A stretch of 46,993 bases of DNA from IMG/VR virus record IMGVR_UViG_3300024264_000057, positions 1 through 46,993 of that record. The stretch is one strand, 5' to 3'. The notes below the pieces were generated by a model. The model saw only the letters and a program-made list of their open reading frames with translations, made no database searches and was not told the DNA's origin. This DNA comes from a virus. The position numbers were made by a program, and so were the translations under genes. Positions 11,136-36,752 of this stretch are shown here, piece after piece (position 1 is the stretch's first letter; each line of letters starts with the position of its first letter).

Positions 11136-11143
11136 TATTTATA
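11136..11143 (-). promoter_or_regulatory. T4-type late promoter box TATAAATA
   Basis: The minus strand reads TATAAATA, the exact T4 late -10 element, 29 nt before the ATG at 11106. It overlaps the stop codon (TAA) of the upstream fibre-like gene. Late promoters of this class are read by gp55-containing polymerase, and a gp55-like gene is in this window. Confidence 0.7.
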
Positions 11144-12702: not shown

Positions 12703-12706
12703 TGTA

Positions 12707-16786: not shown

Positions 16787-17401
16787 TTATCCCTCGTTAA
16801 AACCAGTTAAACTTTGTATTCTTACTGTATAGTCAATCTGTATAAGCCTGTTTAATGATTTTTGTACAGGGTGAAAAATAACGTGTGTAAGCAAGCGACC
16901 TGACCCATCACTATCATAGCTCCTTAGTCCTAATTCATCAAATACAAATAAATTCTCAGCATTTGAAGCTGTGTCAAATGCGTCTTGTCCACTTGGTTCG
17001 CCGTAATCTAACAAACAAGTTACTAAAATATCAGTATAGTTTGTACCACTAACATGTCTTATTTCTGTTTTATTTCTAGCAGGGTCAATATTATTAACAC
17101 TTCTATCATCAACAACTTTCGTATAAGTTTGATTATACAAACTTGCATTAACTCCTGTTGAGTTTGGTGTTAAATATGTAATAACGCCAGTTGGGTCAAC
17201 ACTTGTTCCTCCGTTGCCGAAGCTCATTTCATGTATCCACCCTTCACCTGAGTTAGATAAACTCTCTGCAAGAGCTATACTCATGTTCTCGTAATGGATT
17301 GCGTTACGTTTGTCTATAATTACTTCGCCCGTTTTGGGGTCATGTATTTTTATATGTCCTTGTAACAAAGTTCCTTGTGTATCTTTAAATATATCAGCCA
17401 T
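16787..17401 (-). CDS. Virion structural protein, 204 residues
   Basis: A small structural-type protein beginning MADIFKDTQG, with GHIKIHDPKTGEVI, RNAIHYENMS and a central GWIHEMSFGNGGTSVDPTG. The C-terminal half has FDELGLRS and LTHVIFHPVQKS, then IQIDYTVRI. I recall similar proteins next to fibre genes in T4-like marine phages but know no defined function. The position between the giant protein and the fibres suggests a connector or baseplate attachment role, as inference. AGGAAAAC precedes the start, and a late-type GATAAATA box (17422-17429) lies inside the end of the giant gene. Confidence 0.72.
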   Translation of the reverse strand: MADIFKDTQGTLLQGHIKIHDPKTGEVIIDKRNAIHYENMSIALAESLSNSGEGWIHEMSFGNGGTSVDPTGVITYLTPNSTGVNASLYNQTYTKVVDDRSVNNIDPARNKTEIRHVSGTNYTDILVTCLLDYGEPSGQDAFDTASNAENLFVFDELGLRSYDSDGSGRLLTHVIFHPVQKSLNRLIQIDYTVRIQSLTGFNEG

Positions 17402-17421: not shown

Positions 17422-17429
17422 TATTTATC
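17422..17429 (-). promoter_or_regulatory. Late-type promoter box GATAAATA
   Basis: The minus strand reads GATAAATA 20 nt before the ATG at 17401. It overlaps the stop of the giant gene (CGA TAA ATA). It would start a separate late transcript for the 204-residue protein and fibres. Confidence 0.55.
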
Positions 17430-20400
17430 GCGGCAAATTAATTGTCTTTCCACGTAAGAAAGTTGCAATTTCTGTATTCGATTCTCCTAGCGGTTTAAAT
17501 GTAGAACTTGTATCTTCATCTAATTCACGCCATTCTGTTCCTAGTTTTCTTATTATAATTAGTGTTGTATTTGCTTCCGGAGGTGTCGTTAGACGTACAT
17601 ACGCACCTTCATTTTTATTAACAGCATAATCTGCTTCAATATCAATGTCTGCGTTTGGACTATCTGGACCTTTAGTTACATCGTACACCTTAGTTGGTGT
17701 TTTACGTAGTCTTTTACCATTCGCAAATACTTCAATGTTAAGTGCTTGCCAATATTCTTCTGGTATACCGCCTTCGTCAAACGGTGCTTTGTACCATTCT
17801 CCAGTTTCTGTTGGATTTTTAACAACATCTGTAAATGCTTCAGGATTGTAAGGTACTAATATTTGTACATAAGGCAAGTATTTTGGCAATACTAAATATT
17901 CTTCAGCTCTTAAAGCAGGTGCTGTTTCTTTTGGATTCAGTATTACTAAATCATATGCACCAACTGACATTGTTTCTGTATAGAATTGTATCTCTGTTGT
18001 AGTGCTTGATATTTTTTCAAGCTCTCTTATATCTCCTGCTTCATTTTGCATTAATACTTTTACACCAGGTCTAAATCCTGTTCCTGTAACTGTAGCAATT
18101 TGATCGTATGTACCAGGAACTCTTACAGGAAACACTGTATTGTTATTAAAACTGTATACAATTGAAGTTGCTGTAATGTCTACCGAAGAGTTAGGATATA
18201 TTTTACTTGTATCAGTATAAACTCCACTGATTACTTTGAATCTTTCTTCTTCATCTTTATATGGTAAAATACTATCAGCACCTTGATGATAAAATATTGT
18301 CTCAGCAGTATATTCATCTTTGACTCCGGTGCCCATAGTACCTCTACGCAACTGTTTAAGTACATTGCCGTCTCTTCTAAAGAATTCAATTCGTTCACCT
18401 TCAATGAAAAGCACACCTGGCACTGTAGAAGTTGGTTGTGGTAATCTTTCGTATCCTTCACCAACTTGTATTGATCTGTCGTACCAGCGTAACGGTGCTG
18501 ATAAGGTATGTTCGTCTTCTGAAGATAGTCTTAAATAAGTAGTTCTATTCAGCATATCTTTGAATTGTCGCCATCCAAATCTATTTGATACCGGAGGTGC
18601 TGCAAACTGTATAACATCAACTGTATCATAATCGTTAAGAGGCGTTATAAACTGAATACGTTTTTTGTTTTCTCTTAAAATATAATCAGCAGTCGGTGTT
18701 AGTAGTTTACCGTTAACACTAATCCATACAAAGTTTACGCTAATAGCAGCTGAACGCAAGTCAATAAAGTTATTTGTTAAGTTTCTATAATCGTAATAGC
18801 CTTTTGTCCCTACAGTCATTTCTGTTTGTTGTACTACTTCATATTTTTCTCGTTCTATTCCAAGTCCGTTATGATTACTAAACTGGTATACCTTAATAAC
18901 TGTATCAACTGGATACGTTTTATCAAAATATATAACTGCCGGAATTGGTACAATTTCTACATTTAATGTAGTATCTGCATCGTAATTTGTTCCTGCATCT
19001 ACTACTGTTACATTTATAATACTACCAACTTCATTAACATCAATAGTAAATTGCGCACCAACACCTGCATCAGAACTTGCTGATATACCAGAATCTGTAT
19101 TATAGCCTCTGCCTCCAGACACTACTGTTACGCTTGTAATTTGCCCGCTTTCAATTACAGGTGTTAATACTGCTGGTATTTGTTTACCGCTAGTATCGAT
19201 AAAATCGTTTGCTGAATCAAAGTAACCAAATCTATATTCACCACTACTTAAAACAAACACTTTAAGTTCATCGCCCGGTGCTGCAACTCCACGTTGTAAA
19301 ATAATTGTACTACCTGGTTGCGCATCTGCTGAAATATTTCTATTAAAACTGCCTGCACCTTCATAGGTCCATTCTTGTAAGAATGTAAGTTCTCTGTCGT
19401 TTAAGAACACCTTAAGTTCTGATCCTTCAACCGAACCTACTGGAATTTGCCATACTTTCATTTTGTATTCTAATACATCTGTTTCAACAGTAAATGCTTC
19501 ACTATACCCTGCTGTTAATACATTCTCAGTAACCACAGCTCCTTCAGTTGTTGTAGCAGTAATAATAGTATGATATGATGTTGGTTGCTGTTCAAATGGT
19601 GCACGAGATAATTCGTATGCTGTTGAACTTCCATCTGCTATGATTTTATCTATTGATATTTGACTAAATGTTTCAATTGTACTATTAAAAATTCCGTATT
19701 GTACTAATCTATTTTCAGGAGGTGTTTCAGCAAATTTAATGTGTGTTACTCCGCTTACATTTTCTAATGTAAATGGTAATACACTTCCGTTAACAGTAAC
19801 GTATGCACTATTATTTTCACTATACGGAATTGCTGTTTCGTAGTCTGTTGTACTTGCGTCTGTTGTAAAATTACCATAATCAAGTAAGTTTGTACCGCCT
19901 AAACTAATTGATATAATTGATATCTTTGCTCCAATAGCAGGAGCTTCATACAATAAAACTTCATTAGTTTTAAAATTAATTGTATACTTACTACTGTCTA
20001 CTATAATATAATCAATTTTTACAATTACACTTTCTACTGAATACGGACGTTGTGTTAATGTATAAGTTGTAGTTGTTCCGTTGCCTTGGAAACTATCAAC
20101 TTCAATAACACCTGTTCCACTTGTTGGACGCTCATAAACTTGTAAGTCAAGTGTGTCCATAACCTGCCCAGGGACAGTTTCTTCAGGACCTTTAGATGTA
20201 GTAGCTGTAACAAATCCATCACCGTCAACGTTAATATCTTCAGCTTTGATACCAGTAGCAGTACTATATGCAAGGTCGCCGCCTGTTATTGCAGTATCGT
20301 ATGCACTTTCGTCAATTACTCTACTTCCGTCTGATGTAGCTCTACGTAAAGTAATAACATTTGCCGGCGGATTATTAAGCCCACTACTATCAAGTTCTTC

Positions 20401-23400
20401 AACTACTTGTCTATAACGTATTTCATTTTCAAATGTAAATGTATTTGTTAATCCATCACCAACTATTGGAGCCATAAATGCATATGTGTTTCCTTCAACA
20501 GTAGATGTTCCGTCCCAAGTATCGTCATCAACTCTTTGTCCGTTAATATAAACATTATATTTTACATCTTTAGCTAAAGGTTTTACTAGATCAAATGTAA
20601 CTGTACTACCGTCAGTTTCAAATGTTTCATCGTCAAATGTTTCATCAAAGATATCCCAGTTATCAGTATACCAGTCGCCGGTATCCCATCCTGGAGGTGC
20701 ACCAAACTCAAAACTCTTAACCTGTACGCCGCCGTAATCAACTCCGTCCATAAGTTGGCTAAGATCTTTGCCTAACTGTCCTGTTGTTGGATTATAAAAT
20801 AAGTTTATTCTATCTTGTGCATCAAGTAAGTCGATTGACTTTCTATAATTAATTTGCACTACTGCTTCTGCAGCTGGCGGATTAATAAATTCAATTCTAG
20901 CAAAGTATTTGTCAACTGTTGATGTAGTATCTTTTACATTACTAAAGGTGTAATCACTACTTAAAATTAATTCGCCATTTACACTAATATCAATAGTGTT
21001 AGTTCTTAAATCCATTGGCCATTTTAAATCAAAACGTGATATACCGCCTGACGCTGTAAACGATTCAGTTTCATTCATTTGTGTAATAAAGAATGTTCCG
21101 CTTAATCTATCAAATTTAATAATTGTATGCATATTACGTACTGGAGAGTTACCTAAAACTGCTGTTAGTACTGCATCTCTGCCGCCATCTTTTAGCGTTC
21201 CATTAATTGTTATAGTTGGTAATTCGATATAACCACTACCTGGTTCAATTACTGTTATGCTAGATATGTTTCCTGTTGGTCCTAATGACGCTAATGCTGT
21301 AGCATTTCCTTCAATAACAATTTCTGGTCGTGATATGTATCCTTCTCCAGCATCACTAACTTCGATCTTTGTAACTTCGTAACTTAAATTGTTTAACCAA
21401 TTAGAATCTATATCTAACGCATTACCTGTACCAAATAGTACACCGTTTAAAACTTTAATATCTGCTGTAGTAATTGTCCCTTTGCTACTGTCGTACCTCG
21501 GTGGACTATCAAAATCTGTAACTACGTTTGACGCTGTTTCAAGTTTACTGTAATTTGATATGTACTCTCTAATCTTAGATTTATAAGGTTTAACTTCTTG
21601 AATATATGCTTCGTAACTTGTTAAGTTGTCGTTCTTAAATGTAGTTTTTTGCTGTAGTTCTCCGACATTATGTTGAGCTTTAACAAAACTTGTTTTAAAT
21701 GCCCAGTCAACATAACCTTGTTCTGAAAATACATAACGCAAGCATAAGAAGAATATGTTATTAAATTCATTAGCTAAGTTAGTAATAAAGATATCATCTT
21801 TTAACGCATTTAACAAAATTCTTAATTCTGCAATTGGTTGTTTATCAAAGAACTGTGTATCAAATGTTTGGTTATCAAATCCTACTAGGTTATCTGCAAA
21901 GCTATACAATGAAGATGATAACTGCACTGTACCGTTTTCTTTACCAATAGTTTTATAATTTACTGTATAATCAGTAGTATCTTGGTTATCAATTTTTTCT
22001 AATAATAACCAACCGGTGCCGCCAACATTTAAGATTTTTACAATATCACCAAACCTGTCATCTAACCCTTGAAGGTTATATGTATAATCTAATACATGAT
22101 CAATTTCTGTAAATTTATTATAATCAGTTGCATACCAATCAACATAATCCCAGTATGCTGTTACATCATATGCTTGTGATGCTACTCTAACCCAACTGTT
22201 ATTAATAAAGTGATAGATTGCCCATTTATTGTTAACTGTTTCATCAGCATTTACAAGTACTGCAAATGGTCTAACTTCAATTGACGTATTATCATCATAA
22301 TTATAGCCTTGACTAATTACTGTTACTTGAGTAATTTGTCCTAATACATCTAAAGTAAATTCAACATCTGCGCCAGTTCCCTGTCCGTCAATTTTATATG
22401 TCGGTGCTGTTTTATAACTTCTGCCTCCATCAACTATATCAACACGTACTAGTTTTCCGTTTTCAATTATAGGAGTTAATACTGCTGATTTTGCACGAAC
22501 TGTACTAACAAAATTTAAGTCGATATAGTTATCAACAGTAGTATCAAATTTATTAGTATTGCTAGTTGGTTTTAAATCATTTAATTGTAAAGCTGAAATG
22601 TCTTTTTCATCAGTAATTAAATTTTGCAGTAATGTAACATTAACTCTTTCGATAACTTGTTTAAGAACTTCAACTCTATTAATAAACCATCCCTGTCTTG
22701 GTCTGTTAAGAATGCCGTATTTTTCTTTTGGTGATAAATTTGGATTAGGTACAGGACGACTGTTTACATCGTAGCCAACAAGACTGTCAATAAGTTTGTT
22801 AACTATTTGTTCGTTTGGTATACTAGTTGACAATCCTTCAGTAACTATTTGATACTGATTATGTATATTACTATATTTGTCGCCTGATGTCCAGTACTGA
22901 ATATTTAAAACTGTGTTAGTATCTTCAATTAATGATCCTACATTGTGTAGTACAAAAGAATTAGTATCACTAAATGATATAAACTTATATTTCTGTCCGC
23001 TCGGGTCTGCAATTAATTTTGCTACTGCATCAATACTTAACGATCTACCTGGTATATTAGGAATTGTTGTTTTATCTTTAACCCAGAAATAGTAGTAATT
23101 TGTAAATCTTTTAGCAATATTATCGTATACTCTTCGGGTACTGTAGACCTGACTATCATAAATTGCTGTACCGGTAGTATCAGGATCATTATTCCACCCC
23201 TCTGGTGTTAACGTTGATTCTACCCATTCATATACATCAATTGACGATCCTTTAAATAATGTATTAAAGTTATTTGATTTATAAATTAAATTACTTTGAT
23301 ATACATTATAAAACTTTGCATTAGTTAAGTTCCACCAAACTCTGCCAGTTTGTTCCGGTCCCCAACTTCTGTTAGAGTCAATAGTTATATTATCTATTAA

Positions 23401-26400
23401 GTTATTATTATTAGTATACACCGCAGGATCGTTTGGTGTTTTATAACGTATTTCTTCGTCTGCAGGTCCTGCAATTTTTCCTTGTATTGGATCAATATAA
23501 TCTAGGTTAGTAATTACTTCGTTTTTATTTAAATCGTAAAGCATTACCTTTTTAATTTTATCAATATCAGCTGGCGGATTATGTACTCTATGCTGTGTCC
23601 AAATTCTTTCATTATCAGGACGTCTGTAATCTAATATAAGTCCTTTTTTGCCGTTAGCATTTTGATATTGTGGTACTGAAACATATAAGTGATTATTTTT
23701 AGCAAGAATATTTCTACCAAAGAAATCAACTTCAGCAATACTATCTCTGCCTGCATATGTATGATAGTCAATACTTTGTCCAAAGATTAATGATTCATCA
23801 ATTCTTTCGTATGCATATACTACTCCATTACTAGCTATTTCATTTTTATATGTTGTAAATTCATTATCAAATACTGTAGCGTTACTATCGAATGTTGTAA
23901 TATCGTCACTAGATGCATTAAATGCACTTACAAATAATGAGTTGCCGTCAAATTCAATTTTCTTACCGAATAATTCTCCATCAACTTCATTGACACTTGA
24001 TAACGTTTGTGTTAATACAAATGTGTTGCCTTTTTGTGTGTAAACAAATACTTTTCCAACATTAGTACTAGTTGAGTCATCTGCTAACGGAGCACCGATA
24101 GCTATCATTTTTCCATCTTGACTGATACTTATAGATGTTCCAAATTGTGAGTCAGTTTCGTCTACCGATGGATGAATTAGTTCTTGTGATTTTTGATAAT
24201 TATCATTTATATTTCTATATACAACAACTTTGGTAATATCATTATCAAACTTAGCACTTACTACTAATACTTCACCGTTATCACTAATATCAAAGTCACG
24301 ACCAAATTCTATTAAACCTGTTTGATCAAGTTTTAATTCAGTGTCACCTCCGGGCACAAAACTAATCAATTCCCAATCTTCTGCAGGGACTTCAATTGTT
24401 CCGTTAACATCAACAAATTCATTATATCCTAACGGAATATTACGCTTGGCTTTATAGAAATTTCCGTTAAAATATTGTACAATTTCATCTATTGTGTATG
24501 TTGACAGCGGAGTGAAGAATCCTTTATAATCAAGATCCTCTGGAATAGTTCCTGTATCATTTGGAATATATCCTAAGTAGTCAATACTTCTTATTTGATC
24601 GTTATTTACTAATTGCCATTCTGTAGCAGTAAATGTTGTTCCGTCACCGGCTATGTTTGTTAATGCTTTGTAAAAATATCCGCTATAATAAACATAGTCA
24701 TTAATTATATAATTTGTTGATGTGCTAAACACACCTTTGTAACGCTTGTCTTTTGAAGTTTCCCAATCGTATACTATACCTTCAGCATCAGTACCTTTGT
24801 TAATAAAGAATATCTTTCCTGGATTACTAAGTGTTCCGTTGCCTTGTGCTCCTATGAGAACTTTATATAAGTCATTTCTTTTGGCTATTTTAATCTTACT
24901 ACCTATACGCAGATTTTCTGTTACATCAGGTAGTATGAATGTATCAATTGGGTTAAATGATGACACATTTTCTTTTTGGAATACTGAGAAATAACCAAAG
25001 TTATTTAAATTGTTTCCCGGAGCATCTGGATTGACTGGTATTTTAAATACTTGTGTGTAGTCAAGATTGATAGAGCTTGGAGGATTAGCTAATAACGGTT
25101 GTCCTGAAATTAGCGTATCTTTATATATAATATATTCTGCACCTATTATTGTACTTTCAGCAGGTACAGTTTCAATTTCTGCATCTAATTGGAACACACA
25201 TAATTTACCTATGCCTAAATTATCTGCAACTAAGTCGCCTAATGATACTGCATTAATATCGCCAAGTACTTGGTCTTGGTTATATGCTGGATCTGGATCT
25301 GTTGGAATACCTATATATTCAATAGTTCTACCTGTCCCTAATGCTCCCCAATCGCCTAATACATTAGTAACATATACTCGGGCTTTACTGTTATTAAATT
25401 TTTGATAGTATACTACCTTTGCTGTTGCTCCTGGGTTAGGTGTGCGCTCTCTAACAAACTGTCCTACTTTAGGTTCAAATGGTGCACCAGTAACAGAGTT
25501 TGTTTCATCTAAATCAAAATCAATATACCCTTCCCATAAATCATACAGCGTATGCTTCTTATTTGTTTGAGTATAAGTTAACCCTGTTGGTGTAATATCA
25601 ATAAAGGATCCGTCAGCATCACTTGGAAAGCGTAATATTTCTAGCCCTATTTCGTCACCAACTACTATATTATCAGTTAGTGCTTTAGGAGCCCGAACAA
25701 TAAACAAATCACTCGGTATAATATCTAAGTTATCTGCTGGTCCCGGAGTACCTTGGTATGTAAGAGTTCTTATATAACTGTTATCTGCATTAGAACCATA
25801 AATTCCAGACTGTGTATTATTATACTTCCAAATATTTGCACCAAATGCATCTGTGTCTACTTCGCCTGTTGGTATAACATTATAAACTACTAAGCCTCTT
25901 GCTTCGTCAACATTATTTGCAGAAAGTTCGATATCAGCACCGGTATCAAAGAACCAATAACCGCCAAGCTCTGCATTAACATCAATTGAATCTGTAGGTG
26001 CAGCTCTTTGAAATGCGCCAACAACTTCTCCAGATTCCTTAAATAATTGTCCGATAAGAGGCCAAGCACCGTTTGTTCTTTCAATATAAATTACTGCTCT
26101 ATTGTTTGAAACATATACATAATTAACATATCCAAACACGCCAGTTGCTTCAACTTGATCACCAATCTGTGGCAATATTGATAATACCGGAATCTCTAAA
26201 ATTACATCAACTTTCTTTTGTATAGTTAACCCCGATTCTAAAAATTCTTGTGTAATTGCAGGGAACTCATTGTTAAATGGAAGTCTTGCAGTTGTAGTCG
26301 GTATATCTTGATTTGCTGATGTAAATTCGTTCCATTCCATATAAACTACATCACCTGCTGTAGTTCCTGAATACTGGTCTGCAGGAGCTCTTACAAGAAC

Positions 26401-29400
26401 GTGCTGAGGATGGGTGTCTTCTTCAGATTCGGTAAACGGATAATTACCCGTTAACATATTTTTAAAAAATGCTTCATTTGCAAAAATATTGTTATTTTGT
26501 AATACTTCTGCTATAGCCCCAAAACTTCCAAATTGTTGCTGTGCTTGGGCACCTTGAATATCAACTACTACTTCCCATAACAGTCCGTCGTATTGAACAA
26601 TATCTTTGTTATCATAATCTTGCGTAGATACAAATTCACCCTTGTATCTTGATTTAACATTTGAAGCACCCGGAGCACCTACTACTAAGTATTTTCCGTC
26701 TGCACTAATAGCTTGTCCTGTACCAAATAGTTGTCCTGATCCTACTGATGCACTAGTTGCTGGTTCTACTATTTGTGTAAATTGATAATTTTGACTATTT
26801 CCGCCTCTGCTATATATAAAAAGTTTTCCGTTATTACTAGCAATCGGTGACGACACTGACATAATACTGTTTCTGTTATCAACTGTAATTGATCCGCCGT
26901 AATTATTTTCGCCAGTTTCTTCTGCAGGTATTTGTTGTAATAGATTAAATCCTTGGGTATTCTTTAGAACTTTCCAATCATTTTCAGTATTTTCAATCCA
27001 TATTAACGATCCTTCGTCGATGCCTTGTTGTGCTATTTTATTAGCCTCAACATAATCGCTTACTTTTACAGATTTAAAAGTTGTAACTAACCCTTCACAT
27101 GATGGTATCTTTTCAATTTGAACATTACTTTCAAAATAAATTTTATTAAGTACTTTTTTAGTAACTCTATAAAATCCTTTTAACTGTGATAACCTAGTGT
27201 TAGTAGTTTCAGTTTCAGTAGATCCGTCTTGAGCATCATCATTAATTTGTACATTAAATATGCCTAATATATCGCCAGCTTTAATGCCTGCAGGTGAATT
27301 ATCTAATGTTATTTCTAACTCATACGGCGCAGTAGTGTCGGTAATTTTTTGTTGTAAAGTTTCAATAGAAGTAATAGTAGTATCTAAGGAAACATACTGT
27401 AATACATTCCATTTATTTTCTTTAGATCCGACCCATAAATAATCTTTATTACTAAGTGATTCAATATCTAAATTAGCTATACCATTATAATCAGCTAACA
27501 CTACATCTATATCTGATAAGTTAACAAATCCAGGACTACGAGTAAATGATTTTAAATCTGTTTTTTGAGGAAGAAAATTATTATTATACGTTAATGGCTT
27601 TTTATAAACTTCAAAATCTTTAATATTATATACAAGTCCGTCAACGTCATCACTATTTGTTAACTGTATTGGCTGAGGATTTAATCTAAATTTCTTTTCG
27701 TCTAATTTAAATTCAACTTCGTCGAATCCTTCGCTTGCACCATACTGCCCTTGTTTAATTGCCCATTCTTCATAAAAGTCTAAACTTTCTCTATCATTAG
27801 CACTTAATACATCAAATAATTTATCAAGACTATTACGAGTTCCTTTTTCTTGAATCATTCCTTGATAAAATTTGTACTGACTAACTTCGTCGTTAATAAT
27901 ATTTTCAAGATACTTACGTTTTTGGTAACCAATAAGATGTTGAGCTTGTTGTTGCTGTACTACATCAAAATTATCTGTGTCTAGATCATAAAAGTCTGCG
28001 AACTGATTTGTTTTATATTCAAAGTTTGGTATTAGTTTACTTTGAGGCGTTTCATTTAACCGCACCCATTGATTATAATCAAAAGTTTCTGATCCTGTAA
28101 TAACTGCATCAGCTGTATAATTAAATTCTTTATACTTAACCATATCACCTACTGCATAATCAGTCCATTGTTGCCAATCTTTTATAATAACTTCAGAATA
28201 TATAAATCCTGGAATGTCAAGACTGCCGTTCCAATCAGTAGTACGATATCCAAATGCTTTTATTCTATCTTGTCTATATCCTGTAGCTGGTTGATAAACT
28301 ACATCACCAAATACTGACGAGTTATCAATCATTACAACATGTTCTGTTTGTGTCAACGGAATTTTAATAGAGTAAACTCCGTCAGCTGTAATAGTTGGTG
28401 TTATTTTAAAATTATTTCTATCTATTCTGTCAATCTTTAAAAATTTACTTTCTAAAGGTTTGCCATCTGATTTTAATAATCCGTACCCAAAGAAATTATC
28501 AGTTACACTATCAACCTTAGCATATTCAGTATTAAACCAAACTTGATCTGCTGCAGGGCTTAAAGATATAAGGGCGCCTTCGCCCCAAGAATGTGATGTC
28601 CAAAATAAGAACTCTCTTGAAGCATTTTTCCAGTCTGAAATTATATTTTCTGTGCCGTCAAAGTATTGAAATCTAAATCCTTGTTCAACTAGCCAATGTT
28701 CGTATCCTAATAAAAAGTCAATAACATCTTGTATTGATGTAAGAATTGTACCATACGACAAGGTTAGTACATCATCTTTATTAAACCTGCTTTTAAAGGT
28801 TGCATTGCGGCCACCAGTAACAGGAAGTTTAGCAAGTTTTGTTAACTCTGTAGGTTGACTAGGGTCAAATACATTACCCGAAGTAAAGGTAACATTTGTT
28901 CTATAATAAGATCCGTTATTTTCTATAATAGTATCTTTAGCATAGGTTCTATTTTCATTCCACTCTATATATGAATCTGACACGCCGCCAACATTAACTT
29001 CAATATCTTTTGAAGATGTTAATGATTGATAATATTTAAAATAAGGTAACTCTTTATCATAGCCTCTAATCGAAAATCCACCTTGTACTTTTTCAACTAT
29101 AACACCGCTATAATTTATAGTTTTTATCGGAGTACTTGTATTTAAAAATACTTGATAGTTTTCTTCTGGTATAAAAACATTACCTTCGTTTGTAGGTGTT
29201 CTGCTATCAAGTATTAATTTAAATTTAGATTTATCAGTAAATCCGCCTAGTTTAAAGGTAAGTCTGTTTTTAATTGATTTTATATTATTTTGATATTCAA
29301 CAAATTTATCAGCAAGATTGTATGACATATAATCTTGTATATAATTTACGAATCCTGATGTTAATTTTTGTGCAGATTCATTAATACCTGTTGGAAAACA

Positions 29401-32400
29401 TAAGTCTTCTAACTTAATATGATTTTTTGTATCTTTATAAATTATATGTCCGATAGAATTGCGAACTTGTCTTGATCTATCAAAACCTGTAGCTAGTGCA
29501 GAAGGTGTGCTGTTAATTAGCCAACTAGTTAGAATTGCAAATGGATATTCTGAACTGTTTATCCATGCATCCTCAACTGGGCTTCCGTCACCAAAAACAA
29601 ATCCTCTATTTAATGACTGTGTATCAAATCGTTTTGGAATATTGCAATTAGAAGGACCTAATAATTCACCTGAAGCATTAACTGGTATAAACGTTTTTAA
29701 TCCTGGACGTCTATATAATTTATTAATTTTAAATGAACCGCTAGGATCTCTAATTATTCCTCTTTCTAAATCCTCCCAAAGTAAGGAGTTATTTTTTGTG
29801 TAAGGTGCAGGACCATATTGATCTTCCCACCAACTTGGTTTAATACTAAATCCTAACATTTCCCATGGTGTTAAGTGCGGGCTATCTGTATCGAAGTAAT
29901 ATCTGTATATTGCTCTCCACCAACCTGGTAACTTGTCACCATTCTTATCCATCAATAATGAATAGTTAAAAGTAAACGGATTATCTGTATCAAAGTAAGA
30001 GTTAACAGTATAGTCCTTATCAACTAATGTCATCCATTGTAAAAAATCTGTAGTCAACGGAGCATTAATTTCTTTTCTAGTAAACGCAGTATTACGATTA
30101 AGTCCAGGTACATATGAATGAACGTTAAACAACGTAGGATCGTAATTAATTTTAATGTTATTAAAGATTCTTTTTTCTAATTCTAAAATTAATGCATCTC
30201 TATAATCTCCAAAAGCCTTTACTATGCTTCCGTCATGTCCTTTAATAACTGTAGGATTACTACTAAATGAGGTATCTTGATATAGATATGGTTCAAATAC
30301 TGGATATAAACCTAACTTACTCGGCGTTGGTGGTATAAACGACCCGTTAGTTGTATCGTATTCGTTTATTTCAATAATGTCACCAACAGACTTAGTAGCA
30401 GTAATTACTAAAAAGCCTTCAGTATTAAATGTATAATCTTTATTGTGTATTAATTGTTCACTATTTAAATATACTGTTACTGCTCGAGTGCTTAATGTTT
30501 CTAGTGTAAAATCAGTATTTAAAGCATAGAATTGAGTTGCTATATCTTCTACTATTATTTTAGTTGTAATTGCTGTACCAAAAGGTATCATGTCACTAAA
30601 GTAAAATGGCATAACATTTGTTTTACTTTTTACTAGCTCAGTAATAATCTTATCAACATGCCCTTTTACATTTCCTGAATACCCTATACTTTCAGCTGTT
30701 TCAATAAACAAACGTTTAAATTTAGAATATTCTTTTTTAGAATATCTAACAGCGTTAATTATATTTGACGGCTTATCGATAAGACTGTACATTGATAAGT
30801 TTAACGGCGAACTATGTTTAATAAACTTTCTTCCGTATTTGCTTAACCCGTCTAGATCTCTTAAATTAGACGGTCCAGGAAATATTCCATTAAAGTTAGG
30901 AACATTTTCAGTTATACTAAAAACATGATCGTTAACTTCGCCAAGTGTAAATGAAGTTAAATCTTCATTCAACGGATTCTTTTCAAGATTATTAGCAATT
31001 TCATAATACCCGTTATTATTTTTTACAGCCGAAGAGCTACACTTTATGATAATTGATGCATCTTTATCTAAATCATATTTAAATTTTATACTCTTAATCT
31101 TATCAACACTATTTTCAAATTCGTAATCAATGTTTTCATATTTTATAATATTGTTACATAGTACTGTAATAGATAAATCAGTAAGCTCAGAACTTCGATC
31201 ATAACAGTTAATTGGATATGTAATGCGAGTGTTATCGTTTACATATTGAAGAATTACTTTTTGCTCACTTAATGTATTAGCCTTAGTATAAACATTTGCT
31301 ATTGTAAAATTTTTACCTTTATATTTTCTTAAAAATCCCTGTTTAACATCTACTACATTTAATGTATCATTAGTTTGATATTGGAAAGTGTCTGTATTAA
31401 AATTAAAATCAAATACTATGTCTCCAACATTTTCAATACTTTTGTAGCTTAACGGAAATCCTAATGCAGTATCGTTTGCACCTGTTCCAACTTTATACCC
31501 AAATATCTTACTTCCTCTAAAAGACGATGCAGGATATACATTTATGTTAGAATAACTAATATCGTTTTCGTCAAATACATCAAAAATTGGTGGTGTATTT
31601 ACTGACGTTTTTTCCTGTGCAATACTCCATTTATTACCGTCGTAATACCAAATTTTGCCACCGTTTTCTGTGCCGCGGGTTACTAGTACATTTTCACCGC
31701 TAGACGGCTCACTGTCTGTGGTTGGGACTAGAGTTATCTGTCCGTCTGTTCCGCTTCCTTTGAACTTAATAAATTTTACTTCAAATACTTTACCAGTTAC
31801 TAGTGGATCAGTATCTGCTAAGAATATAACACGCATGCCTGTTGATAACTGTATATCATCAATATTATAACCTAAACTACCTTCAATAGTACTAAACGCA
31901 TCCGTAGTAAAAGTGTCAATTAAGTCAATTGTGCCTTTTGAGAATGATCCAAAGTTATACAATCTTAAACCAGATTCAAATTCAATAATAGGTCTGCTTG
32001 CACGAGCAGTTTCGTCAACTGTAACAGAATTATTTGTAATTGTATCTACTAATTCAATTACATCTTTATGAAACCATCTGTTATATCTTGACCAAAAATT
32101 TCCATCTGGACTTGCACGATTAATTGTAATATAATCTTTATCTCTTGGATATCCTGTTGCTTGTGAGAAAGGAAACTGATCAAATCCTTCGTCATTATCA
32201 AACGGAACATCAACATCAACACCTACAGGAAAAGAAACTTCTACGTCAGTTGCTGATACTAATTCAATTTCTTCACCGACACCCTCAACATACCATTCTT
32301 TGTCTCGATATAGTTCCGGCTGTACATCGCCTCTAAATCTAACTTTTAATCCGTTAGTTAATGACCAATTATCTCTTGTTTGATATTCTTTCTTACCGAT

Positions 32401-33261
32401 AATTTCTGCAACAACATCAATAAATTGAGCATCGCTTTGATTTGCTACTCTAATTAATCCACCAGAATTAATATCTTCACTCGAAACATAAAATAACTCA
32501 TCAGGTGCATCTGATCCTAGTTCTAATTCAATAACGCCTTCATCAACTTTTTGGGCTGATATTCCGTCTACTAATAAAAATGCATCATCTAAAGTTCTTT
32601 GAGTTTTAAATGTTAATGGTAATCCAGGAGTGTTAATTTCAAATCTGTATTTTACACCTCTATATAATTTTAGTATAGGATTGTTAGTTAGCCCATCTGG
32701 AGTAAAAACATAAGAATAGTCGCCCAATGCTTCTGCTAACTCAACTGTATATGTACTTGTAATTTCTTTTTGTTCGCCTGGTATAAACACAGATCTTGGA
32801 CCGTTTGGTAACCAGTAATATTCTCTAAAATTACTAAATTTGTCCCAATCAATTTTTGGATCCCAGGAATAAAATTCTTCTTTTGTATTTCTACCATGAT
32901 TAATATTTGATCCGCCTAGGTTAGCAATTTGATTTATGTAATCTCGGTAATCAGCATGATAATCAACGTTTCCGTTTGAGTCTTGTATAATACTAGCAGG
33001 TTCTAATTGGTAGTTAGTTCTGTCTGCTGATATATCACTTAGATAGTTGTCATCTTTAACATAAGACTTTGCAGTTTTTCTACCAACAAATGAACTTATT
33101 TTTTCAGCTACACCAGGTTGTAATACTTGATCTAATGTAGACTTTAAAAACTTTTGGTTTTTATCTGTTCTAAAATACTTTGGTAAGTGTCTAGCACTTT
33201 CTCTTTTATTCGAGTTAGAACCATTTGGCAATGGAAATTCATTTTGGTCATTTTTTGCCAT
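17425..33261 (-). CDS. Giant baseplate-region structural protein, 5278 residues
   Basis: A single uninterrupted frame of 15.8 kb. The N-terminus (RHLPKYFRTD, LDQVLQPG, YREYYWLPNGP) matches large structural proteins I recall from cyanophages. The gene sits between gp6 and the fibres, where T4 has gp7 and gp8 (gp7 about 1030 residues). Visible modules: five short Trp/Tyr-rich units resembling chitin-binding CBM5/12 repeats (near residues 1430, 1690, 2205, 2840, 2910); FG-GAP-like propeller repeats (VVGAPG, FGTSISIS, AIGAPL) between about 2115 and 3215; three paired GGxGY-type beta modules (about 3590, 3960, 4700); a GGVQV...PPGWDTGDW block near 4180; an IPT/TIG-like domain near 5050-5120. It probably scaffolds the baseplate periphery or forms a long fibre. 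The ATG overlaps the gp6 stop (TAATG). No frameshift is seen. Equivalence to gp7 is not shown. Confidence 0.85.
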   Translation of the reverse strand: MAKNDQNEFPLPNGSNSNKRESARHLPKYFRTDKNQKFLKSTLDQVLQPGVAEKISSFVGRKTAKSYVKDDNYLSDISADRTNYQLEPASIIQDSNGNVDYHADYRDYINQIANLGGSNINHGRNTKEEFYSWDPKIDWDKFSNFREYYWLPNGPRSVFIPGEQKEITSTYTVELAEALGDYSYVFTPDGLTNNPILKLYRGVKYRFEINTPGLPLTFKTQRTLDDAFLLVDGISAQKVDEGVIELELGSDAPDELFYVSSEDINSGGLIRVANQSDAQFIDVVAEIIGKKEYQTRDNWSLTNGLKVRFRGDVQPELYRDKEWYVEGVGEEIELVSATDVEVSFPVGVDVDVPFDNDEGFDQFPFSQATGYPRDKDYITINRASPDGNFWSRYNRWFHKDVIELVDTITNNSVTVDETARASRPIIEFESGLRLYNFGSFSKGTIDLIDTFTTDAFSTIEGSLGYNIDDIQLSTGMRVIFLADTDPLVTGKVFEVKFIKFKGSGTDGQITLVPTTDSEPSSGENVLVTRGTENGGKIWYYDGNKWSIAQEKTSVNTPPIFDVFDENDISYSNINVYPASSFRGSKIFGYKVGTGANDTALGFPLSYKSIENVGDIVFDFNFNTDTFQYQTNDTLNVVDVKQGFLRKYKGKNFTIANVYTKANTLSEQKVILQYVNDNTRITYPINCYDRSSELTDLSITVLCNNIIKYENIDYEFENSVDKIKSIKFKYDLDKDASIIIKCSSSAVKNNNGYYEIANNLEKNPLNEDLTSFTLGEVNDHVFSITENVPNFNGIFPGPSNLRDLDGLSKYGRKFIKHSSPLNLSMYSLIDKPSNIINAVRYSKKEYSKFKRLFIETAESIGYSGNVKGHVDKIITELVKSKTNVMPFYFSDMIPFGTAITTKIIVEDIATQFYALNTDFTLETLSTRAVTVYLNSEQLIHNKDYTFNTEGFLVITATKSVGDIIEINEYDTTNGSFIPPTPSKLGLYPVFEPYLYQDTSFSSNPTVIKGHDGSIVKAFGDYRDALILELEKRIFNNIKINYDPTLFNVHSYVPGLNRNTAFTRKEINAPLTTDFLQWMTLVDKDYTVNSYFDTDNPFTFNYSLLMDKNGDKLPGWWRAIYRYYFDTDSPHLTPWEMLGFSIKPSWWEDQYGPAPYTKNNSLLWEDLERGIIRDPSGSFKINKLYRRPGLKTFIPVNASGELLGPSNCNIPKRFDTQSLNRGFVFGDGSPVEDAWINSSEYPFAILTSWLINSTPSALATGFDRSRQVRNSIGHIIYKDTKNHIKLEDLCFPTGINESAQKLTSGFVNYIQDYMSYNLADKFVEYQNNIKSIKNRLTFKLGGFTDKSKFKLILDSRTPTNEGNVFIPEENYQVFLNTSTPIKTINYSGVIVEKVQGGFSIRGYDKELPYFKYYQSLTSSKDIEVNVGGVSDSYIEWNENRTYAKDTIIENNGSYYRTNVTFTSGNVFDPSQPTELTKLAKLPVTGGRNATFKSRFNKDDVLTLSYGTILTSIQDVIDFLLGYEHWLVEQGFRFQYFDGTENIISDWKNASREFLFWTSHSWGEGALISLSPAADQVWFNTEYAKVDSVTDNFFGYGLLKSDGKPLESKFLKIDRIDRNNFKITPTITADGVYSIKIPLTQTEHVVMIDNSSVFGDVVYQPATGYRQDRIKAFGYRTTDWNGSLDIPGFIYSEVIIKDWQQWTDYAVGDMVKYKEFNYTADAVITGSETFDYNQWVRLNETPQSKLIPNFEYKTNQFADFYDLDTDNFDVVQQQQAQHLIGYQKRKYLENIINDEVSQYKFYQGMIQEKGTRNSLDKLFDVLSANDRESLDFYEEWAIKQGQYGASEGFDEVEFKLDEKKFRLNPQPIQLTNSDDVDGLVYNIKDFEVYKKPLTYNNNFLPQKTDLKSFTRSPGFVNLSDIDVVLADYNGIANLDIESLSNKDYLWVGSKENKWNVLQYVSLDTTITSIETLQQKITDTTAPYELEITLDNSPAGIKAGDILGIFNVQINDDAQDGSTETETTNTRLSQLKGFYRVTKKVLNKIYFESNVQIEKIPSCEGLVTTFKSVKVSDYVEANKIAQQGIDEGSLIWIENTENDWKVLKNTQGFNLLQQIPAEETGENNYGGSITVDNRNSIMSVSSPIASNNGKLFIYSRGGNSQNYQFTQIVEPATSASVGSGQLFGTGQAISADGKYLVVGAPGASNVKSRYKGEFVSTQDYDNKDIVQYDGLLWEVVVDIQGAQAQQQFGSFGAIAEVLQNNNIFANEAFFKNMLTGNYPFTESEEDTHPQHVLVRAPADQYSGTTAGDVVYMEWNEFTSANQDIPTTTARLPFNNEFPAITQEFLESGLTIQKKVDVILEIPVLSILPQIGDQVEATGVFGYVNYVYVSNNRAVIYIERTNGAWPLIGQLFKESGEVVGAFQRAAPTDSIDVNAELGGYWFFDTGADIELSANNVDEARGLVVYNVIPTGEVDTDAFGANIWKYNNTQSGIYGSNADNSYIRTLTYQGTPGPADNLDIIPSDLFIVRAPKALTDNIVVGDEIGLEILRFPSDADGSFIDITPTGLTYTQTNKKHTLYDLWEGYIDFDLDETNSVTGAPFEPKVGQFVRERTPNPGATAKVVYYQKFNNSKARVYVTNVLGDWGALGTGRTIEYIGIPTDPDPAYNQDQVLGDINAVSLGDLVADNLGIGKLCVFQLDAEIETVPAESTIIGAEYIIYKDTLISGQPLLANPPSSINLDYTQVFKIPVNPDAPGNNLNNFGYFSVFQKENVSSFNPIDTFILPDVTENLRIGSKIKIAKRNDLYKVLIGAQGNGTLSNPGKIFFINKGTDAEGIVYDWETSKDKRYKGVFSTSTNYIINDYVYYSGYFYKALTNIAGDGTTFTATEWQLVNNDQIRSIDYLGYIPNDTGTIPEDLDYKGFFTPLSTYTIDEIVQYFNGNFYKAKRNIPLGYNEFVDVNGTIEVPAEDWELISFVPGGDTELKLDQTGLIEFGRDFDISDNGEVLVVSAKFDNDITKVVVYRNINDNYQKSQELIHPSVDETDSQFGTSISISQDGKMIAIGAPLADDSTSTNVGKVFVYTQKGNTFVLTQTLSSVNEVDGELFGKKIEFDGNSLFVSAFNASSDDITTFDSNATVFDNEFTTYKNEIASNGVVYAYERIDESLIFGQSIDYHTYAGRDSIAEVDFFGRNILAKNNHLYVSVPQYQNANGKKGLILDYRRPDNERIWTQHRVHNPPADIDKIKKVMLYDLNKNEVITNLDYIDPIQGKIAGPADEEIRYKTPNDPAVYTNNNNLIDNITIDSNRSWGPEQTGRVWWNLTNAKFYNVYQSNLIYKSNNFNTLFKGSSIDVYEWVESTLTPEGWNNDPDTTGTAIYDSQVYSTRRVYDNIAKRFTNYYYFWVKDKTTIPNIPGRSLSIDAVAKLIADPSGQKYKFISFSDTNSFVLHNVGSLIEDTNTVLNIQYWTSGDKYSNIHNQYQIVTEGLSTSIPNEQIVNKLIDSLVGYDVNSRPVPNPNLSPKEKYGILNRPRQGWFINRVEVLKQVIERVNVTLLQNLITDEKDISALQLNDLKPTSNTNKFDTTVDNYIDLNFVSTVRAKSAVLTPIIENGKLVRVDIVDGGRSYKTAPTYKIDGQGTGADVEFTLDVLGQITQVTVISQGYNYDDNTSIEVRPFAVLVNADETVNNKWAIYHFINNSWVRVASQAYDVTAYWDYVDWYATDYNKFTEIDHVLDYTYNLQGLDDRFGDIVKILNVGGTGWLLLEKIDNQDTTDYTVNYKTIGKENGTVQLSSSLYSFADNLVGFDNQTFDTQFFDKQPIAELRILLNALKDDIFITNLANEFNNIFFLCLRYVFSEQGYVDWAFKTSFVKAQHNVGELQQKTTFKNDNLTSYEAYIQEVKPYKSKIREYISNYSKLETASNVVTDFDSPPRYDSSKGTITTADIKVLNGVLFGTGNALDIDSNWLNNLSYEVTKIEVSDAGEGYISRPEIVIEGNATALASLGPTGNISSITVIEPGSGYIELPTITINGTLKDGGRDAVLTAVLGNSPVRNMHTIIKFDRLSGTFFITQMNETESFTASGGISRFDLKWPMDLRTNTIDISVNGELILSSDYTFSNVKDTTSTVDKYFARIEFINPPAAEAVVQINYRKSIDLLDAQDRINLFYNPTTGQLGKDLSQLMDGVDYGGVQVKSFEFGAPPGWDTGDWYTDNWDIFDETFDDETFETDGSTVTFDLVKPLAKDVKYNVYINGQRVDDDTWDGTSTVEGNTYAFMAPIVGDGLTNTFTFENEIRYRQVVEELDSSGLNNPPANVITLRRATSDGSRVIDESAYDTAITGGDLAYSTATGIKAEDINVDGDGFVTATTSKGPEETVPGQVMDTLDLQVYERPTSGTGVIEVDSFQGNGTTTTYTLTQRPYSVESVIVKIDYIIVDSSKYTINFKTNEVLLYEAPAIGAKISIISISLGGTNLLDYGNFTTDASTTDYETAIPYSENNSAYVTVNGSVLPFTLENVSGVTHIKFAETPPENRLVQYGIFNSTIETFSQISIDKIIADGSSTAYELSRAPFEQQPTSYHTIITATTTEGAVVTENVLTAGYSEAFTVETDVLEYKMKVWQIPVGSVEGSELKVFLNDRELTFLQEWTYEGAGSFNRNISADAQPGSTIILQRGVAAPGDELKVFVLSSGEYRFGYFDSANDFIDTSGKQIPAVLTPVIESGQITSVTVVSGGRGYNTDSGISASSDAGVGAQFTIDVNEVGSIINVTVVDAGTNYDADTTLNVEIVPIPAVIYFDKTYPVDTVIKVYQFSNHNGLGIEREKYEVVQQTEMTVGTKGYYDYRNLTNNFIDLRSAAISVNFVWISVNGKLLTPTADYILRENKKRIQFITPLNDYDTVDVIQFAAPPVSNRFGWRQFKDMLNRTTYLRLSSEDEHTLSAPLRWYDRSIQVGEGYERLPQPTSTVPGVLFIEGERIEFFRRDGNVLKQLRRGTMGTGVKDEYTAETIFYHQGADSILPYKDEEERFKVISGVYTDTSKIYPNSSVDITATSIVYSFNNNTVFPVRVPGTYDQIATVTGTGFRPGVKVLMQNEAGDIRELEKISSTTTEIQFYTETMSVGAYDLVILNPKETAPALRAEEYLVLPKYLPYVQILVPYNPEAFTDVVKNPTETGEWYKAPFDEGGIPEEYWQALNIEVFANGKRLRKTPTKVYDVTKGPDSPNADIDIEADYAVNKNEGAYVRLTTPPEANTTLIIIRKLGTEWRELDEDTSSTFKPLGESNTEIATFLRGKTINLPR

Positions 33262-36200
33262 TAGTAAGTTGTCCCTGTGTTAGTATTATTAACTACATTG
33301 TTAGTAGATGTAACTCTTGCCGAAGCATCATCTAATGCTGAACTTTGTATTCCGGCATTTACTGAAACAGTTTGTGTAGTTATTGTATTTTGTGCTTTAA
33401 GTCTCGAAGCTGTTACTGCGTCTATAACTTCGATACTAGTAACATCGGCACCACTAATGAAAATTTCATCAGCTTCTGCTTTAATTTCGTATAAGCTACC
33501 AAAACTTTGATCTTCTTGTTTTGGTACGATAATAAATGTAGATACATCTGGAGCAAGTTGATACATAACATAGTTCGCAAGTTCTGAGAAATAAAACTGT
33601 TCTCCAAAGTCCCAATTGTCTAAAGCAAAAAATTGATTAATTGCTGTTATGATACGTGTTTTAATTTCGTTATCATTTAATACTTTGTCTTTGTTTTTTA
33701 CAACTTTAAATGTAGCTTGCAAATCTTCTGTTGCCTTATTGCCAAATAATACTTTGTACTTAACTGGATGATAAATTATTTCATCAGTAAGTGATTTAAT
33801 TTTATTTAACTGACTAGCATAAGATATAAACAGCTCGTCACTGCTTGGCGGTAGTGGCTGTTTAATTGAATTTTCTAATAACCACATACGATAATTTGCA
33901 TCATACGTCCTGTCAAGAATATACATATCAATAATATTGCTTGCACTAGGATCAATACGTGTTTCTGCACTTGCTGCATGGTAATATCTAAACTTCAAAT
34001 CATTACGACCAAGACGTGCTTTATAATCTGCACTAATAGTTAACTTTAATGCCGTTTGACTTAGTACTTCAAATACATCAGAATCAATGTAATAAAATAC
34101 CTGTCCATCTTTATATTCGCTAAATGGTCTTAATTCAGATTTTGTAGCTAATATAATAACTGCATCATCAGCATTGTTTAAGTAATTAAAATCTTCAACT
34201 CCGTCAACCGAAGTTATTTTTTGAAATATAACATACTTAGATTTTACATTAACTGTCGGAGAAACAATTTCTTCAAATAAATCTGCATCATCAACAATAC
34301 CGTCTTCGTCTGCATCGAAGTAACTGATTTCTAATTTTTTACTGTCAACATAACCTTCTAAATCTCTATATGCATCAACAATTTCCCAATCAAAGTCTCT
34401 TGTAAATGCATTAACATCATCTGGTTTATAATTTATATTTAAAACTGTAATTGCGTCTTTAATAATCTTACCGGTTTTGCTATCGTAAATTTTTTCTTTA
34501 GGATCGTAATAAAACTTAATCTCTTTATCACTTTCAAATACATAACGCATGCCGCGATATGTAATTGTATAACGTTCACCATCATTTTCAAATAATAGTG
34601 TCCAACTAGCATCCAATTGTTGATTAGTAGTATCTCCTGATTTTCCAGATGAAAATTCAGTGCCTATCGATAAGTTATTTTCAGTAACTAGTCTCCATTC
34701 GCCGCTTGTTTGATCAAAGCGTAGTCCGAATGTTTTATATACAAATATTTGATCGATTACCTGTTGTTTAACACTGTCAATTAAATTATTTGCTAATGCA
34801 GGTTTAATTTCACCTAAAAGAGCACCAGTAGGAATTTCGTCATTTAAGTATACAGCTCCGGTTCCGTCTGGTCTTTCTTCAATGCCTGTGCCATTGACTG
34901 AAATTACTTTTACCCACTTATAATCTAAGTCACCAATTTTAGATGACGGTCCGTCAACTATGTTTAATTTTTTATCAAAATGTTTTCCTGTTGGAGCAAT
35001 AAATTTAATTAAAGTTCCTGGTTTTAACAAGGACATAATTGTTGACGTAAATGAACCTAATTTAATAGCAATACCGTCTGCACTTTTAAATAACCCTGTT
35101 ACTAAATTAGTTTCAACGGTTGTTCGACTCCAGTTAATGCCCAAGTCGTCTGTTAGTATTTTAGGAAATTGGTCAAAGTAAAAATTTCGAAGTTTCTTAT
35201 CCGATAATAACGGAACAATGGTATTTTCAGTAGCACCTTCTACATCAGTCTTTGTTGTAAAAGTAAAGCCTTCTAACTTATTTTGATACTCTTTATACAA
35301 TACGCCATCGTTTCCGTAAAGTGTAGTTTGAGAATATTTTCCAGTTGCATCAATTAAATCAAAATATCTACTAATGCCACTTGCTGTTCTATTAACACTT
35401 TTTACTTTTACAATTTTTTGATTAATACCAAGTGGCGCAACTTGATAGTCTTCGCCAGTTACCATTCTATTTTGTGTATAATATGTTGACGGTGCATTAA
35501 ATCTAATAGTATCAGTACTTTCGCTTGTTGCGCCGTTATCAACTGTGTAATACAAACTATACAATAATGTTAATTCTTCTGTTTTTCCTGATTTAGAAAT
35601 ATAAGGAATGCTAACTAAAATATTACTAAAGTCTTTAGGCGTAAGAACAATACGTTCGTTTTGACTAGATCTAAAGTATACTCTAAATGTACCTTGTGGC
35701 AAATTGCCAAAGACACCATCACTAAACACTAAAGTTACTCTATCGTCAACTCTTGTTAACGCACTATAAATATTTCTTTCTGATTTAGACAAGCTATTGT
35801 AAACAACATTATTACCTTGTAATGCATCAACCTTGGACCAAAGTTCTTGTTCATTTCCTTCAGAATCTAACTTATATAACCAAACATCAGTATCATTAAT
35901 GTCTGGTGCTTCGACTGCAATTGATTGATTAGAACTAGGATTGTTTATTGTAAATACACCCTGGTCTAAAGACCCTTGGCGGAAGTGACTAAAGAAGCCT
36001 GTTGAATTACTAGCAACACCTTTTCCGTCGTCTTTATAAATTAATGCAAACTTATTTCCCGGAAACGGTGCTTCTTCTTCAATAGATGTACTTGTAACAT
36101 CAGTTGACACTATTTCAAACGATAAGTTTCTTCCGTCAATAATTTTATTATATTGGTAAGTTGCAATGTCTGAATTAATAGAATTAAATCGATATTGCTC

Positions 36201-36752
36201 TGTTGATATTCCTGATATCAACTCTTTTTTGTTTGGTTTTCCGAACTCTGAATTTGACGGTAATCCTGTATTCATTACTTTAATGAATTGTTCGTACCAA
36301 TCAGGATTTGAAACATCGTTCCATACAATAGTTTGTTCTTGTAAATTATTGCCGTTACTGTCAATTACTTGTTCAGTAGTCTTGATACTATCTAATTTTA
36401 CAAGTCCGTTAGTAGCTTGGTTACGCTTAGGATTGTATGAAAGCAAACGTGCTAAACGCAGTACTGATTCTCTACGCTCTGCAAGTTCCATATAATTTTC
36501 ACGAGCATTTAAGTCAATACGGAAAGCAATATTTTGTCCTAAGTATGCAATAAGATCTATTAGTGCAAGGTATTCTGAACTATCTACATAGTCGTTATAA
36601 TCTTCAGGATAATTATCCCGCAAGTATTGAATCATAGTTCTACGCAAGTTATCAAAATCATAACTTTGAAAGTCTGCGTTACGGAATGACTGGTAGACTC
36701 GCTTCCAATCTTCCGATAATAACAATCTATTTTGTCTGTCAGTTGAGGACAT
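33261..36752 (-). CDS. 6: Baseplate wedge protein gp6-like
   Basis: A 1163-residue gp6-type wedge protein, longer than T4 gp6 (about 660). The N-terminal region (LLLSEDWKRVYQSFRNADFQ, then YLALIDLIAYLGQN, RIDLNARENYMELAERR) is the conserved wedge start of marine T4-like phages. Residues about 330-470 carry a baseplate-J-like core: FSDGVFGNLPQG, RFNAPSTYYTQNRMVTGEDY. The C-terminal part has repeated structural segments and a low-complexity Ser/Thr/Asn tail. gp6 dimers with gp7 and gp53 normally form the wedge ring of contractile baseplates. It lies after gp25, as expected, and its stop overlaps the start of the giant gene. A possible late box GCTAAATA is at 36777-36784. Confidence 0.9.
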   Translation of the reverse strand: MSSTDRQNRLLLSEDWKRVYQSFRNADFQSYDFDNLRRTMIQYLRDNYPEDYNDYVDSSEYLALIDLIAYLGQNIAFRIDLNARENYMELAERRESVLRLARLLSYNPKRNQATNGLVKLDSIKTTEQVIDSNGNNLQEQTIVWNDVSNPDWYEQFIKVMNTGLPSNSEFGKPNKKELISGISTEQYRFNSINSDIATYQYNKIIDGRNLSFEIVSTDVTSTSIEEEAPFPGNKFALIYKDDGKGVASNSTGFFSHFRQGSLDQGVFTINNPSSNQSIAVEAPDINDTDVWLYKLDSEGNEQELWSKVDALQGNNVVYNSLSKSERNIYSALTRVDDRVTLVFSDGVFGNLPQGTFRVYFRSSQNERIVLTPKDFSNILVSIPYISKSGKTEELTLLYSLYYTVDNGATSESTDTIRFNAPSTYYTQNRMVTGEDYQVAPLGINQKIVKVKSVNRTASGISRYFDLIDATGKYSQTTLYGNDGVLYKEYQNKLEGFTFTTKTDVEGATENTIVPLLSDKKLRNFYFDQFPKILTDDLGINWSRTTVETNLVTGLFKSADGIAIKLGSFTSTIMSLLKPGTLIKFIAPTGKHFDKKLNIVDGPSSKIGDLDYKWVKVISVNGTGIEERPDGTGAVYLNDEIPTGALLGEIKPALANNLIDSVKQQVIDQIFVYKTFGLRFDQTSGEWRLVTENNLSIGTEFSSGKSGDTTNQQLDASWTLLFENDGERYTITYRGMRYVFESDKEIKFYYDPKEKIYDSKTGKIIKDAITVLNINYKPDDVNAFTRDFDWEIVDAYRDLEGYVDSKKLEISYFDADEDGIVDDADLFEEIVSPTVNVKSKYVIFQKITSVDGVEDFNYLNNADDAVIILATKSELRPFSEYKDGQVFYYIDSDVFEVLSQTALKLTISADYKARLGRNDLKFRYYHAASAETRIDPSASNIIDMYILDRTYDANYRMWLLENSIKQPLPPSSDELFISYASQLNKIKSLTDEIIYHPVKYKVLFGNKATEDLQATFKVVKNKDKVLNDNEIKTRIITAINQFFALDNWDFGEQFYFSELANYVMYQLAPDVSTFIIVPKQEDQSFGSLYEIKAEADEIFISGADVTSIEVIDAVTASRLKAQNTITTQTVSVNAGIQSSALDDASARVTSTNNVVNNTNTGTTY

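Follow-up and report, generated by a model that had tools for sequence, protein, structure and literature searches.

The protein encoded at positions 17425..33261 on the minus strand (5278 aa, about 593 kDa) is a large member of PHROG_10938, a widespread family of giant virion proteins of jumbo phages, and is probably a baseplate wedge protein of the virion that takes the place of T4 gp7, a scaffold from which variable zones project. The DNA analysed (the window), 46,993 bases long, is a virus record from IMG/VR. A baseplate location in the place of gp7 has good support from the gene order, the PHROG families of the neighbours and the proteomic detection of orthologues in virions. The modular anatomy of the protein, its conservation and family membership, the order of the genes and the presence of orthologues in virions were established directly, and we infer that the protein most likely works like gp7, with a module-based surface added.

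The reading frame is single and uninterrupted, with 5278 codons, an ATG start and no internal stop; it makes up 33.7% of the window, and codon-position GC is even over its entire length and resembles that of the neighbouring genes. Comparison with an IMG/VR relative that is 97% identical (L019) gave a dN of 0.015 and a dS of 0.18 (NG86 dN/dS about 0.085), with ratios of 0.09, 0.07, 0.13 and 0.07 in four consecutive segments; this comparison stops 140 residues short of the C-terminal end, which lies beyond the L019 locus. The gene is under strong purifying selection over the tested length, and the values of 0.07-0.13 per segment indicate that all of that length is translated and constrained and is no dead extension. 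Among 192 related IMG/VR loci the gene is unbroken in 189; the breaks in the other three (L025, L031 and L087) occur at sites bearing no relation to one another and are therefore likely to be assembly errors. The first-pass annotation, which had described a single-frame protein of 5278 residues taking up a third of the window, was correct on both counts.

Related ORFs with both ends closed (n = 53) range from 3649 to 5165 codons, and with its 5278 aa the giant protein falls towards the top of the PHROG_10938 size range. It had been described as about five times larger than T4 gp7 (1032 aa); the measured ratio is 5.1, yet this size is unexceptional beside the 4156-4458 aa of cyanophage gp7. The idea of a record-size phage protein was rejected, as a structural protein of cyanophage ACG-2014d has 6817 aa. 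The latter (L055 1-3164), which is larger than the giant protein described here, matches the N-terminal part of the S-SM2 gp7. No near DNA match to the window was found in deposited phages.

Each third of the giant protein hits the PHROG_10938 profile, named ‘virion structural protein’ (E = 1e-223, 6e-62 and 1e-23, respectively), and the matches cover most of its length. Searches with tblastn revealed family members in 60 deposited jumbo-phage genomes, including RaK2, GAP32, CBB, PA5oct-like and Atu_ph07, and profile-guided scans of IMG/VR found at least 596 and at least 594 encoding stretches, with at least 594 contigs carrying the family. The full-length proteins have 3857 aa in Cassandra, 4449 in Atu_ph07, 4555 in Phosso, 3326 in RaK2, 3807 in SCTP-2, 3771 in Vibrio 2.275, 3339 in Kaldavass, 3323 in 121Q and 3341 in GAP32. 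The relatives RaK2 ORF070, GAP32_230, CBB_236, 121Q gp582, Atu_ph07 gp180, SCTP-2 gp140 and the PA5oct-like protein have three scaffold blocks in common with the giant protein, at about 25-30% identity, but are smaller (3323-4555 aa versus 5278) and have insert zones that are shorter or unlike its own. The family is already in the databases, with members listed as structural, and giant proteins in the gp7 position are known from cyanophages; judging from the open-access literature, what seems to be new is the placement of the family at the baseplate wedge, the map of scaffold and inserts, and the observation that much of the scaffold is without a PDB match. An anonymous family of ‘virion structural proteins’ from environmental virus contigs is in this way tied to the baseplate wedge.

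The giant gene lies in a structural cluster on the minus strand, which is transcribed in the order baseplate wedge protein in the gp53 position (41353..41658), structural protein (38977-41352), gp5-like hub protein with an OB domain (37265..38977), gp25-like baseplate wedge protein (36809..37261, in the same place as GAP32_232, a GPW_gp25 protein), gp6-like baseplate wedge protein of 1163 aa (33261..36752; phrog_10646 and phrog_219), giant protein, conserved 204-aa protein (16787..17401; phrog_11259) and three fibre-like genes. The stop codon of the gp6-like gene overlaps the ATG of the giant gene (TAATG), and the T4 gp6 and gp7 genes likewise overlap. The giant gene also directly follows gp25 and gp6 in Cassandra, Atu_ph07 (gp180), Phosso, RaK2 (ORF070), Kaldavass, 121Q (gp582), GAP32 (GAP32_230) and CBB (CBB_236), and in Vibrio 2.275 and SCTP-2 it is preceded by a large gene in the position of gp6; most of the structural gene order is repeated in the relatives examined. 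By position the giant protein is gp7. The earlier suggestion that it lies where T4 has gp7/gp8 therefore holds for gp7, directly after gp6 and with the overlap, but not for gp8, of which no homologue was found in the giant protein or its 204-aa neighbour; hhalign gave no sign of a fused gp8.

A gene similar to that of the 204-aa protein follows the giant gene in five of nine reference phages (Cassandra, Atu_ph07, Phosso, SCTP-2 and Vibrio 2.275), and none was found there in RaK2-like phages. In these, an opposite-strand gene for a ClpA-like ATPase lies directly after the giant gene (L005 22528-24837, and the equivalent place in L009, L010, L011 and L017), in the spot of the 204-aa gene of the window. 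The 204-aa protein gave no match as a counterpart of T4 gp6-gp12. In Salicola phage SCTP-2 the gene in the gp6 position (L007 6606-15896) itself encodes 3096 aa, and two adjoining baseplate genes may have grown.

Orthologues of the giant protein are present in virions, in agreement with the structural role first proposed for it; the detections concern orthologues and not the phage of the window itself. CBB_236, which is the CBB orthologue by coordinates (10,023 bp, adjoining CBB_237, the gp6), was represented in CBB virions by 21 peptides at a coverage of 7.72% (PMC5259590). In phAPEC6, gp245 (381.88 kDa) was found in virions with 17 unique peptides and adjoins the 131.18-kDa wedge protein gp244 (PMC7247149); the calculated mass of 121Q gp582 (381.87 kDa) equals that of gp245, and its wedge neighbour comes to 131.21 kDa. 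With a coverage of 7-8%, such data do not tell an intact chain from pieces. Cleavage of a polyprotein into several virion proteins after translation, which the unusual size and clearly modular build might suggest, is nevertheless very unlikely: scans with Pfam and PHROGs revealed no protease or intein domain in the giant protein, the gene remains one frame in 189 of the 192 loci and is never neatly divided into genes, and the phAPEC6 proteome table has a single 382-kDa product, though the mass given is the predicted one (PMC7247149).

Several phages with hairy tails carry the family (PMC5259590, PMC7247149, PMC6102473), and the giant protein could in principle form the hair-like whiskers on the tails of CBB, phAPEC6 and Atu_ph07. 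We consider this the remotest of the explanations, as the gene sits in the wedge cluster and not among the fibre genes, and many unexplained virion proteins of the hairy Atu_ph07 map to a different cluster (CDS 31-76). The family is also carried by the PA5oct-like phage MIJ3 and by RaK2, for which the available portions of the published accounts mention fibres and no tail hairs.

An alignment of 27 family members divides the giant protein into blocks of constant length (residues 1-150, 376-1950 and 3221-3960; about 2460 residues in total), with a coefficient of variation (CV) of length of 0.05-0.08 and about 31-36% identity, and three variable zones with a CV of 0.21-0.75. Scaffold block 1 is an N-terminal ‘LLP..FRT’ domain (32812..33261, minus strand as for all features below; residues 1-150, CV 0.06). 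It is followed by insert zone 1 (32137..32811; residues 151-375), which has 10-513 aa in relatives and is almost missing in RaK2-like phages, by scaffold block 2 (27412..32136; residues 376-1950), the best-conserved part, and by insert zone 2 (23602..27411; residues 1951-3220), which has 116-1461 aa in relatives, RaK2 having 119 aa where the giant protein has 1270. Scaffold block 3 (21382..23601; residues 3221-3960) is again conserved, and the C-terminal variable zone (17428..21381; residues 3961-5278) is a chain of beta modules with 493-1318 aa in relatives. The variable zones together with a few small insertions account for the size of the giant protein. The map sets the constant scaffold apart from variable, possibly host-facing modules.

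The presence of many modules typical of adhesins and fibres, as claimed by the first-pass annotation, was partly borne out. One CBM5/12 module of the chitin-binding type lies inside scaffold block 2 (28042..28194; residues 1690-1740). It exceeds the Pfam cut-off (26.8 bits against 26.2), and its fold, that of CBM5/12 chitin-binding domains such as 1ed7, was confirmed on the structure model (Foldseek 1ed7, probability 1.00, 1.5 Å over 44 columns); this single small module within a virion protein has a putative role in ligand binding. Insert zone 2 contains three further CBM-like stretches (near residues 2215, 2851 and 2922) and FG-GAP repeats, one of which is above the Pfam cut-off for FG-GAP_2 (24040..24177; residues 3029-3074, E = 9e-11) and a second of which is at about residue 2986. 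There are three double glycine-rich ‘GxGY’ modules (22276..22515, residues 3583-3662, phrog_2885, E = 4e-14; 21157..21390, residues 3958-4035; and 18964..19185, residues 4693-4766, E = 5e-20), of a type otherwise found mainly in PHROGs of T4-like wedge proteins and of virion structural proteins (2885, 701, 708 and 438). A beta module at residues 4042-4131 has weaker repeats near 4208 and 4387, and another (18262..18519; residues 4915-5000) also occurs in the N-terminal region of cyanophage gp7 (hhalign E = 2e-9, 96%). PHROG and Pfam scans of the giant protein turned up neither a collar nor an S74 or tailspike domain; a collar domain is present in the separate gene at 14680-16782.

The modules raise the question of whether the giant protein is mainly a receptor-binding arm or adhesin attached at the rim of the baseplate, in which case the true subunit of the gp7 class would come from another, smaller gene, for instance the 204-aa gene or one of the uncharacterised structural genes between 38977 and 42431. 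The CBM5/12, FG-GAP and beta modules are consistent with such an arm, as are the unproven homology to gp7 and the matches of modelled beta-rich parts to a phage tailspike and podoviral tail modules. Host-recognition parts are, however, usually the fastest to diverge, and the best-conserved and length-constant part of the giant protein is its scaffold, the adhesin-like modules being variable and dispensable, as the short insert zone 2 of RaK2 illustrates. Separate fibre genes also exist, so the giant protein is less likely to be the main receptor-binding protein. Overall we regard the arm explanation as improbable. The first of the fibre genes (14680..16782) has the tail collar domain, and two further fibre-like genes (12707..14680 and 11139..12668) belong to the family of its N-terminal domain, all on the minus strand. 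The proposal of a baseplate periphery fused to a receptor-binding arm thus stands as regards the baseplate location, on the evidence of gene order, PHROG neighbours and orthologue proteomics; the fused arm is unproven, with three separate fibre-like genes downstream and no sign of fused gp8, gp9, gp10, gp11 or gp12. Fusion of gp9-gp12 was sought by PHROG and Pfam scans and by hhalign of the module at residues 4861-5010 alone, with no match.

The three fibre-like genes (11139-16782) share an N-terminal domain (phrog_15511/14394) and differ in their C-terminal parts, with one collar domain and one weak Peptidase_G2-like chaperone region among them, and look like alternative or co-mounted fibres. 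Their N-terminal domain gave no match to T4 gp6-gp12.

T4 gp7 is a wedge monomer present in six copies (PMC3004832), and gp7 equivalents differ greatly in size, XM1 gp17 having 242 aa (PMC10457771). The giant protein shares the gene place and the overlap with gp6 with T4 gp7 and its counterparts P2 gpI, T6SS TssG and XM1 gp17. T4 gp7 is, however, five times smaller and has no significant sequence match to the giant protein or fold match to its two modelled stretches: no scaffold segment of the family gave a significant hhalign profile match to T4 gp7 or gp8 or to cyanophage gp7, and the Pfam Gp7 helical, domain V and domain VI families, all three of which match T4 gp7 itself, were not found in the giant protein. 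The sole candidate for a helix of the gp7/gpI/TssG class is a suggestive KGT-helix motif (27742..27879; residues 1795-1840). This motif (about residue 1806), picked before testing, falls on the KGx helix when aligned with cyanophage gp7 (E = 0.003-0.007); its alignment with the helix of T4 gp7 and P2 gpI is poorer. A sliding-window scan of 86 windows against three targets (258 comparisons) would be expected to yield about one match of this size, so the alignment is suggestive only. In the same scan, residues 2341-2420 match T4 gp7 domain V weakly (E = 0.005-0.01) and in the correct order after the KGT motif, which is a lead only. The negative profile result is weak too, because the identical profile-profile method missed the control pair T4 gp7 and P2 gpI, which are held to be counterparts (PMC6300606). 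Unlike the scaffold segments, T4 gp7 and cyanophage gp7 do recognise one another (hhalign 96%, E = 8e-9). Homology of the giant protein to gp7 is thus suggestive only.

A parallel outside the family is the cyanophage gp7, annotated as ‘baseplate wedge initiator’ (S-SM2 SSM2_097, 4156 aa; 4458 aa in MED4-213), which is likewise giant and modular and follows gp25-gp6. It has the glycine-rich module and the beta module at residues 4915-5000 in common with the giant protein; the glycine-rich modules and, by hhalign, this one beta module were the only matches to PHROG_2885, the family of the cyanophage giant gp7, and a full-length match was not found. Its scaffold is not alignable with that of the giant protein, its gp7 class is backed by a match to T4 gp7 that the giant protein is without, and an annotated gp8 comes next.

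Domain-wise structure prediction, proposed in the first-pass annotation as a check, was run with AlphaFold for residues 960-1990 (mean pLDDT 80, the KGT region being at about 37-65) and 3215-4210, which include scaffold block 3 (pLDDT 79). It yielded the CBM5/12 fold and small modules only: Foldseek searches with both models found neither T4 gp7 nor any large PDB match. In the PDB, the first model matched CBM5/12, and the second matched parts of podoviral tails (8es4, 9efk and 8ck1) and a tailspike. Among predicted viral structures, the model of residues 960-1990 matched family members including that of Atu_ph07. Searches of solved-structure sequences with profiles matched only CBM5/12 and a glycine-rich module of podoviral tail proteins, and those with raw protein pieces gave nothing useful, 4m7v at E = 0.7 being taken as chance. 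Much of the scaffold is thus confidently predicted yet without a large PDB match, a point of interest for how T4 gp7 came to be enlarged or replaced in jumbo phages. That the conserved scaffold is an unrelated, unsolved fold rather than a descendant of gp7, having taken over the role of wedge scaffold across a large branch of the jumbo phages, is a minority possibility; if true, evolution would have replaced the third subunit of the wedge in contractile baseplates.

As a wedge protein working like gp7, the giant protein would pair through its constant blocks (about 2460 residues) with the gp6 dimer encoded by the overlapping gene, with one chain per wedge and six per baseplate. The three variable zones would project outward and line the baseplate rim, where the CBM5/12, FG-GAP and beta modules may make weak multivalent contact with glycans of the host surface, dock separate fibres, or both, and the contact signal could be relayed to the sheath via gp6/gp25. 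Differences in size between phages would reflect modules gained or lost in the variable zones.

Genes for a late sigma factor and SbcCD (42510-46174) adjoin the structural cluster, as they also do in Cassandra and Kaldavass. A 150-aa ORF on the plus strand (46402-46854) hits PHROGs that carry the names NAD synthetase and homing endonuclease; the former name may be a mislabel. At the other end of the structural cluster (1000-5117, minus strand) there are three adjacent radical SAM proteins of 436, 482 and 457 aa, all of which match the twitch-domain family NF033640 (E = 3e-90 or better), and in Atu_ph07 and Phosso radical SAM genes likewise lie just after the fibre genes.
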